A DNA stretch of 64,000 nucleotides from Litoreibacter albidus (lineage in GTDB: Bacteria; Pseudomonadota; Alphaproteobacteria; Rhodobacterales; Rhodobacteraceae). This document shows positions 51,877 through 58,318 of this stretch, piece by piece (the stretch's first letter is position 1; every line of letters starts with the position of its first letter). The notes beneath the pieces are model-generated. The model was not told the origin of the DNA and ran no database searches. It saw only the letters and a program-made list of their open reading frames with translations. Made by a program: the position numbers and the translations under genes. The stretch spans positions 1-64,000 of the forward strand of contig NZ_FNOI01000011.1 of NCBI RefSeq assembly GCF_900107015.1, in the 5' to 3' direction.

Positions 51877-52473
51877 TCAACTTGCCAACCCTGCATCCAC
51901 CAGCTGCTCGCGATCCGGCAGGTCTTGCAAGCTCTCCATTCCGAACGCGACTAAGAACTTCTGCGTCGTCACATACGTATATGGAGCCCCGCGCCTAGGG
52001 GATCGTGGACCGGTTCCGATCAGATCTTGCGCGTGCAACCGCCCGATCAGGTCGCGGCTGATATCTTTGCCAAAGATGTCCTTCAAACCGTCGCGGGTCA
52101 GCGGTTGGTGGTAGGCAATGGCTGCCAAGACGGCGATATCGAACTCCCGCAGGTCGAGGTCTTGGTCTGCAACGTCTGAAGCGGCTTTGATCGCGGTCGC
52201 GTAGACGGGCCGCGTGCGAAACATCCAGCCGTCGGCCACCTTCGCCACCTCGAAGGACCGGCCTTCAATATCGGCGGCAAGGTCCTCGATAAGCAGTTCG
52301 ACCGAGGCTCCCTGCCCCACCACACGCGCAAGGTCTTCGCGCGGGACAGGTGAGGCAGAAGCAAAGAGCACCGCTTCGATCCGGCGCATCCATTCGCGCC
52401 AGCGCAGTTCTGCCGGTATGTCCCCAAGCTCCCGATTGAGCGTTTGGTCTGCGTCACTCTTCGCCATCGTCAA
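51877..52473 (-). CDS. ScpB-like (kleisin-interacting winged-helix) protein
   Basis: The 198-residue protein follows ScpB: RRIEAVLFASASPVPREDLARVVGQGASVELLIEDLAADIEGRSFEVAKVADGWMFRTRPVYA, REFDIAVLAAIAYHQPLTRDGLKDIFGKDISRDLIGRLHAQDLIGTGPRSPRRGAPYTYVTTQKFLVAFGM. Housekeeping ScpB works with ScpA and SMC in chromosome condensation; no scpA or smc gene is present here. It overlaps the DUF1403 gene by four bases. On this replicon it probably serves plasmid maintenance. Confidence 0.88.
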   Translation of the reverse strand: MTMAKSDADQTLNRELGDIPAELRWREWMRRIEAVLFASASPVPREDLARVVGQGASVELLIEDLAADIEGRSFEVAKVADGWMFRTRPVYATAIKAASDVADQDLDLREFDIAVLAAIAYHQPLTRDGLKDIFGKDISRDLIGRLHAQDLIGTGPRSPRRGAPYTYVTTQKFLVAFGMESLQDLPDREQLVDAGLAS

Positions 52474-53378
52474 AGCCCGTAAAGCCGGAACGTGTCGCGA
52501 CCGGTGAGCTCGCGCACCGCGCCCAGATCCACCAGCCGGTCGCAGAACCGTCGCGCGGCCCGGTCGGAGCGCAGCGACGTCAGGGCCGCAGGTGCCACCG
52601 CATCGCGCGCCAGAAACACGGTCACGGCGTCCTCTGCTCCCTTCGCTCTCAGCCTCGGCGCGACCTCTCGCAACCGCGCCGCGCGGCGCGCTAGGTCTGC
52701 CCCCTCGCGGATCACCTCCACGGCAGCAGCCACAAGCGCCCGATGGACGGACGTACGTAACTCGTCACCCTCCGTCCGCAGATCACCGCGCTTGAGACCA
52801 AGTGCCAAAAGCGGCACAACATGGGTCCACCCAAGCGCTTGCGCTAAGGCCGCGTCAGCCAATAACAACGCGGTTGAGGGATCGCGCGGCCGCTCCTCCA
52901 GAACAGTTTGCAGAACTGCTGCGGCCCGCGACGCTGCCCCCACATGTCCCGCGCCGCATTGGTCGTACGCATCCAGCCAAGTCGCGATCCGCTCCGGCCC
53001 CACGTCCAGCAGTGCCCCTTGCAGCGCATCCACAGAGACCGGACGCGCCACCGCCCGTTGCCACGACAGGGCAATTTCACCCGATGGCCCGGGGCTATCA
53101 CCGGGGTGCAGGAACGCTACAGCATCGCGCAAATCCCCTGCCCTTTCCGGCCGCCCTTGATGCGTCACGCAAGCCTCCGCCGCGCGCAGGGCGAGGCGCG
53201 CGCGCAACAAGCTTCGGGGGACGTCTTCCCGCTCCAACACAAGATGCAGGTGGGAGAGCGCCGCACCCGACAAAAACGCCACATCTTCAGGGGTTTTGGG
53301 CCGCGCAGAGGTGACCCAAGCGGGCAGCTTCGGTAGGGTATTCTGGTCGTCGGAGATATCGGTTGGCTGGTAGGTCAT
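52470..53378 (-). CDS. DUF1403 family protein
   Basis: The 302-residue, mostly helical protein (LPAWVTSARPKTPEDVAFLSGAALSHLHLVLEREDVPRSLLRARLALRAAEAC) matches DUF1403 proteins of alphaproteobacterial plasmids. No catalytic motif is visible. Translational coupling to the ScpB-like gene and divergence from a tyrosine recombinase make it a likely part of the same maintenance module. Function is unknown. Confidence 0.8.
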   Translation of the reverse strand: MTYQPTDISDDQNTLPKLPAWVTSARPKTPEDVAFLSGAALSHLHLVLEREDVPRSLLRARLALRAAEACVTHQGRPERAGDLRDAVAFLHPGDSPGPSGEIALSWQRAVARPVSVDALQGALLDVGPERIATWLDAYDQCGAGHVGAASRAAAVLQTVLEERPRDPSTALLLADAALAQALGWTHVVPLLALGLKRGDLRTEGDELRTSVHRALVAAAVEVIREGADLARRAARLREVAPRLRAKGAEDAVTVFLARDAVAPAALTSLRSDRAARRFCDRLVDLGAVRELTGRDTFRLYGL

Positions 53379-53456
53379 GCTACACCCCTAATCCTACACG
53401 GCGCTTTTGTCCACAATTCGGCACAGAAACCGCCCCACCCTGTCGTTTCTAGCTAC

Positions 53457-53481
53457 GTCCAATAATATTGCATTATCGGAC
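53457..53481. other. 25-bp dif-like palindrome upstream of the recombinase
   Basis: Two 10-base arms, GTCCAATAAT and ATTATCGGAC, flank a 5-base centre (ATTGC). They are complementary at nine of ten positions; the exception is the fifth from the outside. Arms of about ten to eleven bases around a short spacer are the layout of tyrosine-recombinase core sites. It ends 22 bases before the recombinase ATG, so an operator role is also possible. Confidence 0.6.
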
Positions 53482-53503
53482 TTGAGGGCATATCGTCTGC
53501 GCC

Positions 53504-54511
53504 ATGCCTGAAAACACGCCGATATCCGCCCACTCCCGCCCGCTAGAGCGCCTGGCAGAGACCGCGCGTGACTACGCGGAGCAGGCAACTGCGGGGAACA
53601 CCAGCAGCGCCTATAAGGCGGATTGGAAGCACTTCAGCAGATGGTGCCGGATGCGCGGCGTCCCTGCCCTGCCCCCGTCGCCGGAGCTGGTCGGGCTCTA
53701 TATTGCCCATTGCGCGGCCCCTGACGATGGCACTCCTCCGCTCAGCGTCAGCACCATTGAGCGGCGCCTCTCCGGCATCGGCTGGCAGTACCAACAACGC
53801 GGCCTCACGCTCGACCGCAAGGACCGCCACATCGCGACCGTGCTCGCCGGTATCCGCCGCCAACACGCCCGCCCGCCGCGCCAGAAAGAGGCCGTGTTGG
53901 CGGATGATTTAATCGCGATGATCGCCACCCTGTCCCACGATCTGCGTGGCCTGCGGGACCGCGCAATTCTGCTCGTCGGATACGCAGGCGGGTTGCGGCG
54001 GTCCGAGATCGTCGCGCTGGACTGCGGGCGCGACGACACATCGGACAGCGGCGGTTGGGTGCAAATTGAAGACGCGGGTGCGGTGCTGTTTCTGCGTGGC
54101 AAAACCGGATGGCGCGAGGTGGAGATTGGCCGTGGGACCACAAAAGCCACCTGCCCCGTCCACGCGCTGGAACAATGGCTGCACTTCGCCAAGATCGACT
54201 TCGGCCCGCTCTTCCGGCGCGTTAGCCGCGACACCACGCGGGCGCTCGACGGCCGATTGTCCGACAAGCACGTGGCGCGGCTGATCAAGCAGACCGTCCT
54301 TGATGCGGGCATCCGAAGTGATCTGCCGCCGCGCGAACGTCTTGCGCTGTTCTCGGGGCACAGTTTGCGCGCGGGTCTGGCGTCCAGCGCGGAGGTGGAC
54401 GAGCGCTATATCCAGAAACAACTCGGCCATGCCTCCGCTGAAATGACCCGAAGGTATCAGCGGCGTCGCGATAGATTTAGGGTAAATTTGACCAAGGCCG
54501 CAGGACTGTAG
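53504..54511 (+). CDS. Tyrosine recombinase/integrase
   Basis: The 335-residue protein has an N-terminal SAM-like core-binding domain (AGNTSSAYKADWKHFSRWCRMRGVPALP) and a C-terminal catalytic domain with the expected residues: Arg in GYAGGLRRSEIVALD, H-x-x-R in SGHSLRAGL, His in KQLGHASAEM and the Tyr nucleophile in TRRYQRRRDRF. It resembles plasmid-borne XerC/D-like enzymes. The 3' end is duplicated just downstream together with a parS-like palindrome. Confidence 0.92.
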   Translation: MPENTPISAHSRPLERLAETARDYAEQATAGNTSSAYKADWKHFSRWCRMRGVPALPPSPELVGLYIAHCAAPDDGTPPLSVSTIERRLSGIGWQYQQRGLTLDRKDRHIATVLAGIRRQHARPPRQKEAVLADDLIAMIATLSHDLRGLRDRAILLVGYAGGLRRSEIVALDCGRDDTSDSGGWVQIEDAGAVLFLRGKTGWREVEIGRGTTKATCPVHALEQWLHFAKIDFGPLFRRVSRDTTRALDGRLSDKHVARLIKQTVLDAGIRSDLPPRERLALFSGHSLRAGLASSAEVDERYIQKQLGHASAEMTRRYQRRRDRFRVNLTKAAGL

Positions 54512-54590
54512 GCGACGGGATGGTTCCCCGCGGGGAACCATCGGCAGATCACCCCGCATTCGCGAAGAAAGCCGCAACGGGGCGTGCGGC
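54458..54590. repeat. Repeat copy 1: recombinase 3' end, parS palindrome, parB-like 3' end
   Basis: This covers the last recombinase codons (RRRDRFRVNLTKAAGL), the 20-base palindrome at 54521-54540, and, on the minus strand, VAAFFANAG-stop, which resembles the end of ParB. The same order recurs 146-149 bases downstream. Confidence 0.7.
54521..54540. repeat. parS-like palindrome, site 1
   Basis: A perfect 20-base palindrome with core GTTCCCCGCGGGGAAC, which fits the repABC parS consensus GTT-NN-C-N-GC-N-G-NN-AAC. It lies 9 bases after the recombinase stop. Confidence 0.85.
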
Positions 54591-54603
54591 AGCACGCAAA
54601 CCT

Positions 54604-54740
54604 CAGCGGTGGCGTCATGATAGATTTAAGGGAAAGTTAACCAAGGCCGCCAAACTAAAAGCGGCAAGGTGGTTCCCCGCGGGGAACCACCGGTGGGTCA
54701 GTCCAAGTTTGCCAAAAAGGCTTCAACCGCGCTTTGCAGC
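54604..54740. repeat. Repeat copy 2: recombinase-like 3' end, parS palindrome, parB 3' end
   Basis: The plus strand reads RWRHDRFKGKLTKAAKL, a diverged copy of the recombinase C terminus (bases ATAGATTTA.GG.AAA.TT.ACCAAGGCCGC shared with copy 1). It is followed by the palindrome at 54670-54689 and then the true parB 3' end (VEAFLANLD on the minus strand). Confidence 0.7.
54670..54689. repeat. parS-like palindrome, site 2
   Basis: Identical 20-base palindrome, 8 bases past the parB stop codon. Confidence 0.85.
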
Positions 54741-55810
54741 TTTTCACGGCTCACCGCAGAGAAGTCGCGCGGCAGGCGCAACTCAACCTTGCCGTTCTGT
54801 GCCAGCACCCGCGCTTCGCCCTCTGGCCGCGCCAGACGCAGCGATGTTTTGGACACCGATTTGGGCGGGGTCGGCGTGTCGTCCTCGGGCGGCAACAGGG
54901 CTTCGCGCAGCACGCGGACCTCTGAGGCGGGGTCGTGATCGTCCAGCGCTTTGAGGGTCTCCGCAACTTGCGCCCCGCGCCCCTCCTCCGCTTCGAACAG
55001 CTTGTAGAGGTCCATGCCCAAGGCGCGTGGGATTGCCTCCGGATGGAGCAACGCGTCGCCCAGAACATCCAAGACTTTTGCGAATTGACGGATGTAGCTG
55101 CGCTTCTGCTTTAGCGCGGAGGCGTATAAAACCGTCACCGCATCGCCCGGATCCATGCCTTCGTCGCGGGCATAGGAGATGGCGAGCCGCGCCATTTCAC
55201 CGAAAGAGATGTCTTTTCGGACGAGGTTTTCGTCCACCATCTTGCGGTACAAATCGACCAATGGTTCCCCGCGGGGAACCAGCGCGGCGGGGATCTTGGT
55301 GTAGCGCACGTCGCCTGTTTCCTCCGCCAACTCCTTGAATGCGGCCAAGCGGCGGAAGCCTTGGATCAGCTCAAACCCTGTTTCCGTCTGCTCCACGCGG
55401 ATCGGGTTAGAGAGCCCAACCGCCTTAATAGAGTCTTTTAGCTCCATCAATTCAGGGTCTGCGTTGGCGGAACGGTCCCGCGTCAGCTTTGTGATCACGA
55501 CGGATGATGTGGGGATCAGGTCGGTGATCAGGCCCATCTTCTTCAGCCGAACATGCTCATGCGCCAAGGCGTCATTCTCTGCACGAATGGCAGCTTCGGC
55601 CCCAGCCCGCTCCGACGTCGCGTCGGCGGCTTCGGAAATAGCGCTCGCCATCGGGCCACGACGTTGCGGCGCGGCCTCGTTTTGCAAGGGGTGACCTTGG
55701 ACATTGAAGGACTTGGTTTCCAGCGGAGGGTTCCCCGCGGGGAACCTCTCGTCCTCCGGCGCATCCTCCGCCTCGAAGTTGATGTCGAAAACGCTGCGTT
55801 TCTTAACCAT
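54698..55810 (-). CDS. parB: Plasmid partition protein ParB
   Basis: The 370-residue protein has a ParB/Spo0J N-terminal region (IPTSSVVITKLTRDRSANADPELMELKDSIKAVGLSNPIRVEQTETGFELIQGFRRLAAFKELAEE), with the GFRRL segment in the place of the usual GERR CTP-binding motif. A helix-turn-helix central part (DISFGEMARLAISYARDEG...KQKRSYIRQFAKVLDVLGDALLHPEAIPRALGMDL) and a C-terminal dimer domain follow. It would bind the palindromes listed here; two of them lie inside its own coding sequence. It is three bases downstream of parA in the same operon. Confidence 0.9.
   Translation of the reverse strand: MVKKRSVFDINFEAEDAPEDERFPAGNPPLETKSFNVQGHPLQNEAAPQRRGPMASAISEAADATSERAGAEAAIRAENDALAHEHVRLKKMGLITDLIPTSSVVITKLTRDRSANADPELMELKDSIKAVGLSNPIRVEQTETGFELIQGFRRLAAFKELAEETGDVRYTKIPAALVPRGEPLVDLYRKMVDENLVRKDISFGEMARLAISYARDEGMDPGDAVTVLYASALKQKRSYIRQFAKVLDVLGDALLHPEAIPRALGMDLYKLFEAEEGRGAQVAETLKALDDHDPASEVRVLREALLPPEDDTPTPPKSVSKTSLRLARPEGEARVLAQNGKVELRLPRDFSAVSREKLQSAVEAFLANLD
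55262..55281. repeat. parS-like palindrome, site 3, inside parB
   Basis: The identical 20-base palindrome is read through by parB, encoding VPRGEP in an otherwise conserved region (AALVPRGEPLVDLYRKMV). Confidence 0.85.
55729..55746. repeat. parS-like palindrome, site 4, inside parB
   Basis: An 18-base copy (outer pair changed), located in the poorly conserved N-terminal part of parB and encoding RFPAGNPP. Confidence 0.85.
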
Positions 55811-55813
55811 CTA

Positions 55814-57109
55814 TTAGTCCTCCACCTTGTCCCACGCATCCGTCAGCGTGTCCCTGAATTCCTCGTAAGCCCGATCAAACGACGCACGTGCGCGGCGCCA
55901 TGTCTCCCGCGTCATCTGGCGGTAATCAATCTCGTAAACGGACGACAGGAAGCGGCCGGACTGCTCCACCGCGCGGGTCATCTCGATCGGATGCTCGGCA
56001 ACATGTGACTTAAAGACCTGACCAAAAGCTGACTGCATCGCGCGGTGCAAATCGTTGTTCGGCTCGAACCGCGTCAGCAAGAACTTGAGATCAAGGAACG
56101 CCTTATCGACGCCGGTGCTGCCGGGTGTCTGCCCCTTAAAGCGGCCCAAATCTTCCAGCGCCTCGGACAGCTGGCCGATGAAACTGGTGGTTGAATCGTA
56201 TTCCCAGTAGCCGGGGCCGGAGGGGATGTAGAGCACGTCGGACGCGAAAACCGCGTTCATCGACTGGTACCCGATGGCGGGCGGGCAGTCGAAGATGATC
56301 ATGTCGTAGGCGTCGTCCGGCAGTTGATCAAGGTAGCGCGACACGGCAGCGAAAAACGACCATTCCGGATTGAGGTAGCGGTACTGCGCGGAGGCAAATT
56401 CCACGAAGGCGGCATTGGCGCAGGAGGGCACCAAATCAATCGACGGCCAGCTTGTCGGCTTGATGAAGTCGGCCACGCGCAGATCGCTTAGGCCCATTCC
56501 GGTCACGGCGGCGGGCAAGGTGCGGCGGGGCAGGGTGGTGCCGGATTCCGCACCGGCGGGCGCGTTGTTCATCCGCTCCGTCTCGCGGATCAGGTCGCGG
56601 GCCATGATGCCCCAGACGGTGAATTCCTCGGCCACGTCGGACAGGCCCATGGAGTGGCTGAGCGTGGCTTGCGGGTCGAAGTCTACGCACAGCACTCGGT
56701 AGCCGTCGAGGGCTGCGGCATGGGCAAAATGCAACGCGACGGTGGACTTGCCAGCGCCGCCTTTGAAGTTGGCAATCGCCGCGCGGATGGCGCGTTTACC
56801 GGCGGGGCGCTTGGGCATCAGGGAGCGACCTTTGACTTTGATCTTGCGGCGCAGCTCGTTGATTTCCTCCAGCGTGTACCAGCGCTGACGACCGTCTTCT
56901 TCTACCAGGCCTTCGGGCAGGGACGGGTCCGCGGCGAGGCGACCACGCAAGGTCGAGGGGTTCATCTTGAAGATCAGCTCCGCGACCTCCCAGCTAGAGA
57001 ACCGGCGGAGCGTCTTCTCCATCTCGGGGGAGTAGGTCTGCTGGCGGATGAAGCCCTGCATCTTGAGCGATTGGGCCTGAAGTCTGGCCAGATCGGAGTG
57101 GTTGAACAT
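55814..57109 (-). CDS. parA: Plasmid partition ATPase ParA (with N-terminal DNA-binding domain)
   Basis: The 431-residue protein starts at MFNHSDLARLQAQ (GGGA ahead); an ATG at 57148 would start inside a palindrome. The N-terminal ~110 residues hold a helix-turn-helix (SSWEVAELIFKMNPSTLRGRLAADPSLPEG, RQRWYTLEEINELRR). The ATPase then shows the deviant Walker A FKGGAGKST, DFDPQATLSHSMG, and IIFDCPPAIGYQSMNAVFAS. This is the type Ia/RepA-like ParA class that also represses its own operon. It moves ParB-bound plasmid copies along the nucleoid. Confidence 0.92.
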   Translation of the reverse strand: MFNHSDLARLQAQSLKMQGFIRQQTYSPEMEKTLRRFSSWEVAELIFKMNPSTLRGRLAADPSLPEGLVEEDGRQRWYTLEEINELRRKIKVKGRSLMPKRPAGKRAIRAAIANFKGGAGKSTVALHFAHAAALDGYRVLCVDFDPQATLSHSMGLSDVAEEFTVWGIMARDLIRETERMNNAPAGAESGTTLPRRTLPAAVTGMGLSDLRVADFIKPTSWPSIDLVPSCANAAFVEFASAQYRYLNPEWSFFAAVSRYLDQLPDDAYDMIIFDCPPAIGYQSMNAVFASDVLYIPSGPGYWEYDSTTSFIGQLSEALEDLGRFKGQTPGSTGVDKAFLDLKFLLTRFEPNNDLHRAMQSAFGQVFKSHVAEHPIEMTRAVEQSGRFLSSVYEIDYRQMTRETWRRARASFDRAYEEFRDTLTDAWDKVED

Positions 57110-57127
57110 GTGTCGATCCCAACTGTG

Positions 57128-57147
57128 TGGTTCCCCGCGGGGAACCA
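57128..57147. repeat. parS-like palindrome, site 5, upstream of parA
   Basis: The identical 20-base palindrome, 19-38 bases ahead of the chosen parA start. It may serve both as centromere and as operator for the parAB promoter. Confidence 0.85.
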
Positions 57148-57148
57148 T

Positions 57149-57628: not shown

Positions 57629-58318
57629 ATGCATTCTCCGAAAGCTGTGGGGCGTCAGGCCGCCGCACGTAAATACGATATTATCACCGCACTGGGCACC
57701 TATGCTTTGGCGCGGGGCAAACACGATCACCGGCTGGTGCTTCGACTGCTGACGCTGATCACCGCGCGCTATAACTGGCAACGCGACGAGTTGGCGGTGG
57801 GCCAGCGCGAGATCGCGCGCATGTGGTCGGTGGACGAGCGCACGGTGAAGCGCGAGATGGCGAAACTGCGCGGCATGGGCTGGCTGGTGGTCAAGCGGCA
57901 GGGCGCGCGGGGCAGGGTGTCGGAGTACAGCATTAACTTTGTGCGCCTGCTGGATGACACACGCGACGATTGGGCCAAGGTTGGCCCCGACTATGATCAC
58001 CGCATGAAAGGCGAGCCTGCGCCGGAGCAGGGCGCAGAGGTGGTGCCCCTGCCGGTGCGCGGTGCTGTGCCCGCACCGGAGGCAGGTGGCGGCTCTGCGT
58101 GGGATTTGGCGCGCGCTATTTTGCACCAAGAGGACGCGGCGAATTACGGCAGCTGGTTCCACCGTCTGCGCGCTGGCGAGAGGGTAGGGGGGCGACTGAC
58201 CCTTGTGGCCCCCAGCCGGTTCCACGCGGCCTATGTGCGGTCCCATTTCACGGTGCGTTTGCTGAATGTGTGCCGTAGCGTTGATGACAGCATCACACAG
58301 GTGTTTGTGACGGAGTAG
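57629..58318 (+). CDS. DnaA-like plasmid replication initiator
   Basis: The 229-residue protein has a winged-helix N-terminal part (AVGQREIARMWSVDERTVKREMAKLRGMGWLVVKRQGARGRVSEYSINFVRLL) and a C-terminal segment that resembles DnaA domain I (WDLARAILHQEDAANYGSWFHRLRAGERVGGRLTLVAPSRFHAAYVRSHFTVRLLNVC). It has no AAA+ ATPase domain. This fits the DnaA-like replicases known from Rhodobacterales extrachromosomal replicons, which stand beside parAB. It probably binds the iteron-like repeats upstream and recruits the helicase via its DnaA-like end. Confidence 0.85.
   Translation: MHSPKAVGRQAAARKYDIITALGTYALARGKHDHRLVLRLLTLITARYNWQRDELAVGQREIARMWSVDERTVKREMAKLRGMGWLVVKRQGARGRVSEYSINFVRLLDDTRDDWAKVGPDYDHRMKGEPAPEQGAEVVPLPVRGAVPAPEAGGGSAWDLARAILHQEDAANYGSWFHRLRAGERVGGRLTLVAPSRFHAAYVRSHFTVRLLNVCRSVDDSITQVFVTE

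Follow-up and report, generated by a model that had tools for sequence, protein, structure and literature searches.

The described systems that stand closest to the locus reported here are those of Cre and of the Xer recombinases. In the Cre/loxP system of the P1 phage-plasmid, a single plasmid-encoded tyrosine recombinase acts on a near-palindromic site with an asymmetric centre, and loxP is organized as 13-8-13. The XerCD/dif system and the plasmid Xer sites cer and psi provide the second point of reference; here two different arms serve two recombinases, and the inner ends of dif read ATAA...TTAT, as they do in the dyad described below. According to the accessible part of one report, Xer sites measure 28–30 bp, with 11-bp arms and a centre of 6–8 bp (PMC11724359). 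A plasmid setting of a related kind is that of Sinorhizobium meliloti pSmeLPU88b, where a XerD-like recombinase and toxin–antitoxin genes lie downstream of repABC and a role in maintenance was suggested; the portion of that report that was available describes no core site (PMC10194956). Finally, Tn5053-family elements, the "res site hunters," carry TniA, TniB, and TniQ and insert beside a resolution site, targeting the res sites of resolvases, as stated in the part of the source at hand (PMC11406308).

The locus compared with these systems is located on an 87.5-kb contig of Litoreibacter albidus (NZ_FNOI01000011.1), the first 64,000 nucleotides of which were analysed as a whole and are referred to as the window. 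At positions 53457–53481, a dyad with the letters GTCCAATAAT ATTGC ATTATCGGAC precedes a gene for a tyrosine recombinase of 335 residues (53504–54511, plus strand; Pfam PF00589), which is proposed to act on it. A sequence-only reading of the window had described two 10-base arms, complementary at nine of ten positions, around a 5-base centre, and had placed this palindrome 22 bases before the recombinase start; the letters bear out both statements, with positions 53482–53503 separating the dyad from the ATG at 53504. The same reading counted 79 bases to the gene for a DUF1403 protein, which holds only from start to start, as 78 bases (53379–53456, a gap defined by spacing and synteny) actually intervene. 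The dyad is present in a single copy in the 3.58-Mb assembly at up to three mismatches. A repeat search of the gap gave no report, an imperfect dyad being missed by such a search.

The DUF1403 gene (52470–53378, minus strand; Pfam PF07183, E = 7e-88, and synteny) is the usual left neighbour of the dyad and is itself adjoined by the gene for ScpB, a subunit of the SMC complex (51877–52473, minus strand; Pfam PF04079). To the right of the recombinase follow a ParB-like partition protein (54698–55810, minus strand; NCBIfam RepB at 3.5e-8 and Pfam ParB_N at 1.5e-4, both below the cut-offs), a ParA/RepA-like partition ATPase (55814–57148, minus strand; Pfam AAA_31 at 3e-24, and NCBIfam RepA at 7e-62, below the cut-off), and a replication protein with a helix-turn-helix and a DnaA N-terminal domain (57629–58318, plus strand; Pfam PF11638 at 1.6e-6), from which a DnaA-like type of replicon is inferred. 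All six genes fall within 6.5 kb, in agreement with the earlier assignment of the site to one block with parAB, ScpB, and the origin. The literature searched, which did not cover most subscription journals, yielded no mention of DUF1403. The window also contains five exact copies of the 18-bp palindrome GGTTCCCCGCGGGGAACC, at 54522, 54671, 55263, 55729, and 57129, around and inside parA and parB, which are likely the parS sites of the replicon. The 3' end of the recombinase gene together with a palindrome (54457–54544) is repeated just downstream (54603–54693), and 3'-end fragments of the recombinase were also found in two further genomes (G141 and G097).

Judged by its shape alone, the dyad carries no weight. 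Four such bare dyads occur in the window, compared to 3.06 ± 1.58 expected from 100 dinucleotide shuffles, and in the 125-bp gap a dyad with any centre of 3–8 bases arose in 42 of 5000 shuffles. Shape was hence rejected as evidence, and whatever the dyad means has to be derived from its conservation. Conservation in homologous gaps had been set beforehand as the test, and the dyad passed it. A pattern of the dyad allowing up to three mismatches was observed in 55 of 295 genomes of the family and its reversed control in none of the 295. Relatives of the recombinase (E ≤ 1e-20) occur in 64 of these genomes, at 85 listed places; 52 of the 55 dyad-bearing genomes fall among the 64, with the dyad present in only 3 of the remaining 231. 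No dyad was scored in twelve of the 64, of which seven contain just 30–40% relatives or a fragment and five have recombinases of 55–75% identity. With 70 of the 85 places taken as loci, the window included, a dyad (at most five mismatches to GTCCAATAAGTTTGCATTATCGGAC) was located within 600 bp upstream of the recombinase in 49, and the other 21 include several that are at contig ends, have their dyad farther away behind an insertion, or represent more distant relatives.

The association extends beyond the family. A short blastn search with a 30-base consensus matched 440 plasmid records at E ≤ 10, 46 of them at ≥99% and some only weakly, and the exact pattern occurs in at least 117 stretches of genome contigs; the stretches listed come from Rhizobium, Agrobacterium, Brucella, Afipia, and Methylocystaceae besides Rhodobacterales. 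Removal of duplicates left 179 of 195 sites, and the 78-bp spacing between dyad and DUF1403 recurs in 109 of the 151 sites with a DUF1403 match. The dyad is also found at loci identified through the recombinase or TniQ and not through the dyad itself, with compensated changes in its arms: it is present in five of five Rhizobiales loci picked through a 62–65% identical recombinase and in one of two loci picked through a 35–37% relative. The neighbourhood of recombinase, dyad, and DUF1403/ScpB spans Rhodobacterales and Rhizobiales, including a Ti plasmid, and an identical type of dyad adjoins both DnaA-like and RepABC modules. At one remove, a plasmid of Roseomonas gilardii (L247) encodes a 37% identical recombinase near an ScpA gene, and a related dyad, GTACGATAACCCTCTATTATCGTGC, lies roughly 1.8 kb upstream of the recombinase. 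Two contigs of uncultured Marivita (L107 and L118) carry the dyad and a replication-initiator-like gene without a recombinase or DUF1403 match in the locus, possibly as passenger sites used in trans.

Alignment of 34 distinct dyads from 61 loci (55 found via the recombinase, of which 50 were accepted at up to eight mismatches to the template, and 6 via TniQ) revealed the anatomy of the site. The conserved arms are GTCCRATAA and TTATCGGAC. Outer-arm changes are compensated, with T–A in 22 and A–T in 6 dyads at positions 2 and 24, and C–G in 28 and A–T in 3 at positions 3 and 23; the observed arm pairs include GACTGATAA/TTATCAGTC, GAACGATAA/TTATCGTTC, and GACCGATAA/TTATCGGTC. Positions 10, 11, and 16 are variable, positions 12 and 13 are TT in all 34 dyads, and positions 14 and 15 are G in 31 and C in 30. 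Since the variation extends to positions 10 and 16, where the bases are complementary in just 18 of the 34 dyads, the organization is 9-7-9 rather than 10-5-10. In the window, the left arm GTCCAATAA thereby occupies 53457–53465 and the right arm TTATCGGAC 53473–53481, around a 7-bp asymmetric centre, TATTGCA (53466–53472; consensus NNTTGCN), which is the inferred region of strand exchange, all read on the plus strand. The two arms are equal at eight of nine positions and differ at one; in many relatives they agree at nine of nine.

In the recombinase, R166, H286, R289, H309, and Y318 are invariant in an alignment of 48 recombinase sequences, and K200 is invariant in an alignment of 36 and conserved at ≥90% in that of 48; these six positions we take to be the catalytic residues of tyrosine recombinases. 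The best match among PDB sequences is Cre, over most of the protein (E = 1e-5 with the single sequence and 4e-9 with a profile), although the similarity is distant and XerA/XerD were matched in the profile search as well. Scores against the XerC and XerD equivalogs are far below the cut-offs, at 48.9 bits against 335.15 for XerC and 44.6 bits against 329.6 for XerD. A predicted structure (mean pLDDT 62.5, pTM 0.36) was too poor for comparison.

Two features expected of a Cre/lox-type single-recombinase system are therefore present, namely a plasmid-borne recombinase with a conserved catalytic set, and near-identical inverted arms with an asymmetric centre adjacent to its gene. Differences from Cre/loxP lie in the 9-7-9 instead of 13-8-13 arrangement, in an unrelated arm sequence, and in the DUF1403 and ScpB neighbours in the window. 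With XerCD/dif and the plasmid Xer sites, the locus shares a similar dyad size and, as an inferred role, the resolution of plasmid dimers. The 7-bp centre is within the 6–8-bp range given for Xer sites in the accessible part of the source (PMC11724359). In contrast, judged from sequence alone, the two different arms for two recombinases that characterize XerCD/dif are missing, as the system, which is plasmid-borne, has one recombinase gene and nearly equal arms. Accessory sites, such as those that assist Xer systems, could be accommodated in the 78-bp gap. Since Cre is the closest solved structure by sequence and the protein is so far below the XerC and XerD cut-offs, the system, on sequence grounds, appears to resemble Cre/lox more than XerCD/dif. 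The earlier proposal of a recombinase core site is supported, as the dyad is conserved and flanks are exchanged there, as described below, but with two corrections: the arms are 9 bp and the centre 7 bp, and the system, with its one recombinase and nearly identical arms, is nearer to Cre/lox. A search for a chromosomal dif with a single, tentative consensus gave no match, and a phage collection returned only 11 short or weak matches. The likeness to pSmeLPU88b lies in a plasmid tyrosine recombinase near replication genes, as far as the available portion of that report allows it to be judged (PMC10194956).

The dyad very probably serves the adjacent recombinase as its core site, with dimer resolution as the likeliest role. 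The fuller proposal, for which confidence is high but short of certainty, is that of a self-contained, Cre/Xer-like site-specific recombination system of the plasmid, with dimer resolution as its routine job. The neighbouring tyrosine recombinase would bind as a pair to the almost identical 9-bp arms, and two sites occupied in this way would synapse and exchange strands across the 7-bp asymmetric centre, so that plasmid dimers are converted to monomers before segregation by ParAB and ScpB-associated functions. Since the dyad is located just upstream of the recombinase start, binding may also tune expression of the recombinase. It is important to note that binding and recombination of the dyad by the recombinase, resolution as the selected function, and the centre as the overlap region are inferred, without binding or recombination data.

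Recombination at a core site should leave traces in the flanking DNA. The left and right 120-bp flanks of the dyad are nearly uncorrelated (Spearman 0.135; 49 loci, 1176 pairs, anchored alignments), and none of the 1176 pairs reaches 90% identity on both flanks, with single flanks reaching 100%. Change points were sought in 208 candidate pairs out of 11,628, from 153 loci, within at most 900 bp to either side of the dyad, with a sharp transition defined as ≥95% identity on one side and ≤82% on the other. Of 46 such transitions, 21 were observed within −5 to +30 of the dyad, whereas the actual lengths would predict 1.2. Of these 21 pairs, six include L187 (four times), L173, or L141, where the right side is soon interrupted or rearranged or no recombinase is visible, and a stricter count was used for this reason; restricted to 96 uninterrupted loci, 15 of 29 transitions coincide with the dyad (0.8 expected). 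Locus pairs share loci and are not independent. In random sets of uninterrupted pairs sharing no locus, a mean of 5.7 of 12.8 transitions (range 3–8) remained at the dyad, with a median tail probability of 5e-7 and a worst value of 3e-3. Other thresholds applied to the full set placed 31 of 100, 24 of 57, and 11 of 17 transitions there. Farther out, at +33 to +69, six transitions were observed, and five of them coincide with loci where transposon ends are involved.

The clustering concerns the dyad as a whole and does not resolve where inside it the switch occurs. Among the 21 pairs, eight have identical dyads and five agree through position 9 and differ from position 10 on. The four L187 pairs already differ at position 5 on the alike side; and of four pairs alike on the right, the difference is confined to position 5 or 10 in two and occurs at position 24 in the other two. 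Included in the 21 are L004/L149 and L005/L212, whose alike sides show a difference inside the dyad. No switch at the boundary between arm and centre is claimed, as one would fit only five of the 21 pairs plus L004/L016, which is not among the 21, and six others do not fit. L004 is chimeric: its left flank is that of L016 and its right flank that of L005, and the switch falls between dyad positions 5 and 10. A comparable case is provided by pDSHI01 and pDSHI03 of Dinoroseobacter shibae, which have accessions for DUF1403, ScpB, WGR, and Fic proteins in common and are identical in DNA up to and through the dyad, diverging 2 bp beyond it. The two have been described as sister plasmids that share syntenous regions exceeding 50 kb, according to the part of the source that was available (PMC4886583).

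The mosaic flanks and the abrupt end of the DNA common to the sister plasmids also admit another reading, namely that the dyad is mainly a point of fusion or exchange, where replicons are joined and the replication and partition modules on the right are shuffled against DUF1403/ScpB and cargo or conjugation functions on the left. As an account of the main function this appears unlikely, given that such swaps may be infrequent side effects of a system for resolution; and because a fused plasmid that is resolved again at that site yields its parents back, chimeras require a further event. Nor does the one apparent fusion examined occur at the dyad. A Pseudosulfitobacter pseudonitzschiae plasmid of 197,672 bp (NZ_CP087085.1), approximately the sum of a 110.6-kb and an 87.1-kb plasmid, looks like their natural cointegrate (L213–L216). 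It carries two dyads, both of which keep the parental flanks and junctions, so that it was discarded as a case of recombination at the dyad; by gene order, the join was apparently made within a shared TniAB element to the left of ScpB. As its two dyads differ in their centres, the cointegrate neither supports nor refutes dyad activity. The idea that diversity of centres forms a barrier between co-resident plasmids found no support, a point against the core-site reading, with identical centres in 7 of 18 co-resident pairs against 4.5 expected (degenerate sites, two of them on contig G239:C6, were left out).

A second alternative to a core site retains the dyad as a binding site alone. It would then be an operator for divergent recombinase and DUF1403 promoters, bound by the recombinase or another regulator, without strand exchange. 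Its location between divergent genes, with 22 bp to the recombinase ATG and the recurrent 78 bp to DUF1403, is compatible with this, and the fixed spacing would also suit an operator of DUF1403. In addition, many relatives show, by eye, a TATGCT-like hexamer some 17 bp beyond TTGCAT in the centre; as a possible −35 element, TTGCAT could make a promoter overlap the dyad, and the conserved centre would be explicable without recombination. Against this, no promoter was scored at the dyad in the window, and the site outlasts its proximity to the gene. The distance between dyad and recombinase exceeds 210 bp, with transposons or other genes in between, in 30 of 179 sites, and the dyad is still observed there at zero to three mismatches. 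TniABQ elements intervene at five loci (L073, L076, L077, L116, and L208). Among Rhizobiales, annotated VapBC genes lie between dyad and recombinase at L237, VapBC-like genes read by eye at L168, and antitoxin-like starts, also by eye, at L103, L138, and L204.

The transposons beside the dyad add a further observation. Two TniABQ families are located to the right of the dyad in a single orientation. Type A ends lie 28–30 bp from the dyad in 15 of 15 cases and type B ends 34–58 bp from it in 12 of 13, the thirteenth being at a contig end; these loci were mostly chosen by the dyad. A search of the 295 genomes independent of the dyad placed one of one type A and six of seven type B ends beside it, the seventh being the same contig-end case. 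TniQ searches were consistent with this result. Both type A matches were on dyad contigs, as were four of five type B matches; the fifth was on a contig with the transposon end at its edge, in a genome where another contig starts with the same end beside a dyad. PF06527 TniQ is present in both types, and TniA, TniB, and TniQ are annotated in L073. Nine plasmid TniQ relatives were picked from 64 and 91 records to span 36–80% identity. Six adjoin DUF1403, with a dyad 77–80 bp from its annotated start and transposon ends at 29 bp (two), at 57 bp (two), or not found (two). Two others adjoin a recombinase, with neither DUF1403 nor dyad in the 8–9 kb examined. The ninth, a 36% relative (L239, Agrobacterium tumefaciens pAtCFBP6626a), lies near a Tn3 transposase and resolvase without a dyad, a setting that resembles that of a classical res site hunter. 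At two loci (L115 and L173) a type B end lies 18–20 bp inside a type A end, indicating that elements land on one another beside the dyad. A perfect 5-bp target-site duplication was seen in one of five elements with a located right end (type B, L162, 3,745 bp, GATTC); four type A elements (3,765 or 3,774 bp) have no perfect 5-bp duplication, which may have been lost through later exchange between elements.

The TniABQ elements share their gene content and the insertion beside a resolution site with the Tn5053 family, as described in the part of the source available, where the target is the res site of a serine resolvase (PMC11406308). They differ in that their ends adjoin a dyad beside a tyrosine recombinase, and insertion at a serine-resolvase res site does not apply to them. 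Among the matches listed, for which titles and abstract openings were available and most subscription journals were not covered, there was no account of the dyad site or of TniABQ elements aimed at a plasmid tyrosine-recombinase site.

Taken with the operator in mind, the persistence of the dyad behind other genes and transposons, the clustering of breakpoints at it, and the landing of type A elements at a fixed distance in one orientation each favour a recombination core over a mere operator, and exchange of plasmid flanks is the trace expected of a crossover site, not of a plain repressor operator. A function restricted to regulation is accordingly held to be improbable, still more so than a main role in exchange; regulation and recombination at the dyad are not mutually exclusive. 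That the dyad instead acts as a centromere, for partition or for SMC loading, with ParB, DUF1403, or ScpB as its reader and the recombinase as a bystander, would suit its ParAB, ScpB, and DUF1403 neighbours but can be given very little credence, as the dyad occurs beside both replication types, the five-copy palindrome around parAB is the better parS candidate, and at some dyads a recombinase is present while no DUF1403 is annotated in the stretch covered.

With the dyad understood as the core site of a resolution system, the wider result is a conserved joint of alphaproteobacterial plasmids that is both an exchange point and a transposon target at fixed distance. A more far-reaching version, which at present could equally well prove right or wrong, regards it as a shared crossover hub, a portable joint between replication/partition and cargo/conjugation modules, on which at least two Tn7/Tn5053-like TniABQ lineages have specialized, reading the dyad or the bound recombinase as a ruler for distance and orientation. 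If true, these elements would be hunters of a tyrosine-recombinase site and not of a serine-resolvase res site.

Resolution of dimers is indispensable to large plasmids, and many plasmid tyrosine recombinases have no known role; a survey was unable, in the part of it that was accessible, to single out the families responsible for resolving plasmid multimers (PMC3414803). Here, one recombinase is linked to its probable core site and to a recurrent DUF1403/ScpB neighbourhood. The D. shibae sister plasmids represent a ready experimental model, and the TniABQ elements one of natural, ruler-like transposon targeting. For the alphaproteobacterial plasmids, the dyad offers a short, testable site and a possible explanation for the free combination of replication modules with cargo.
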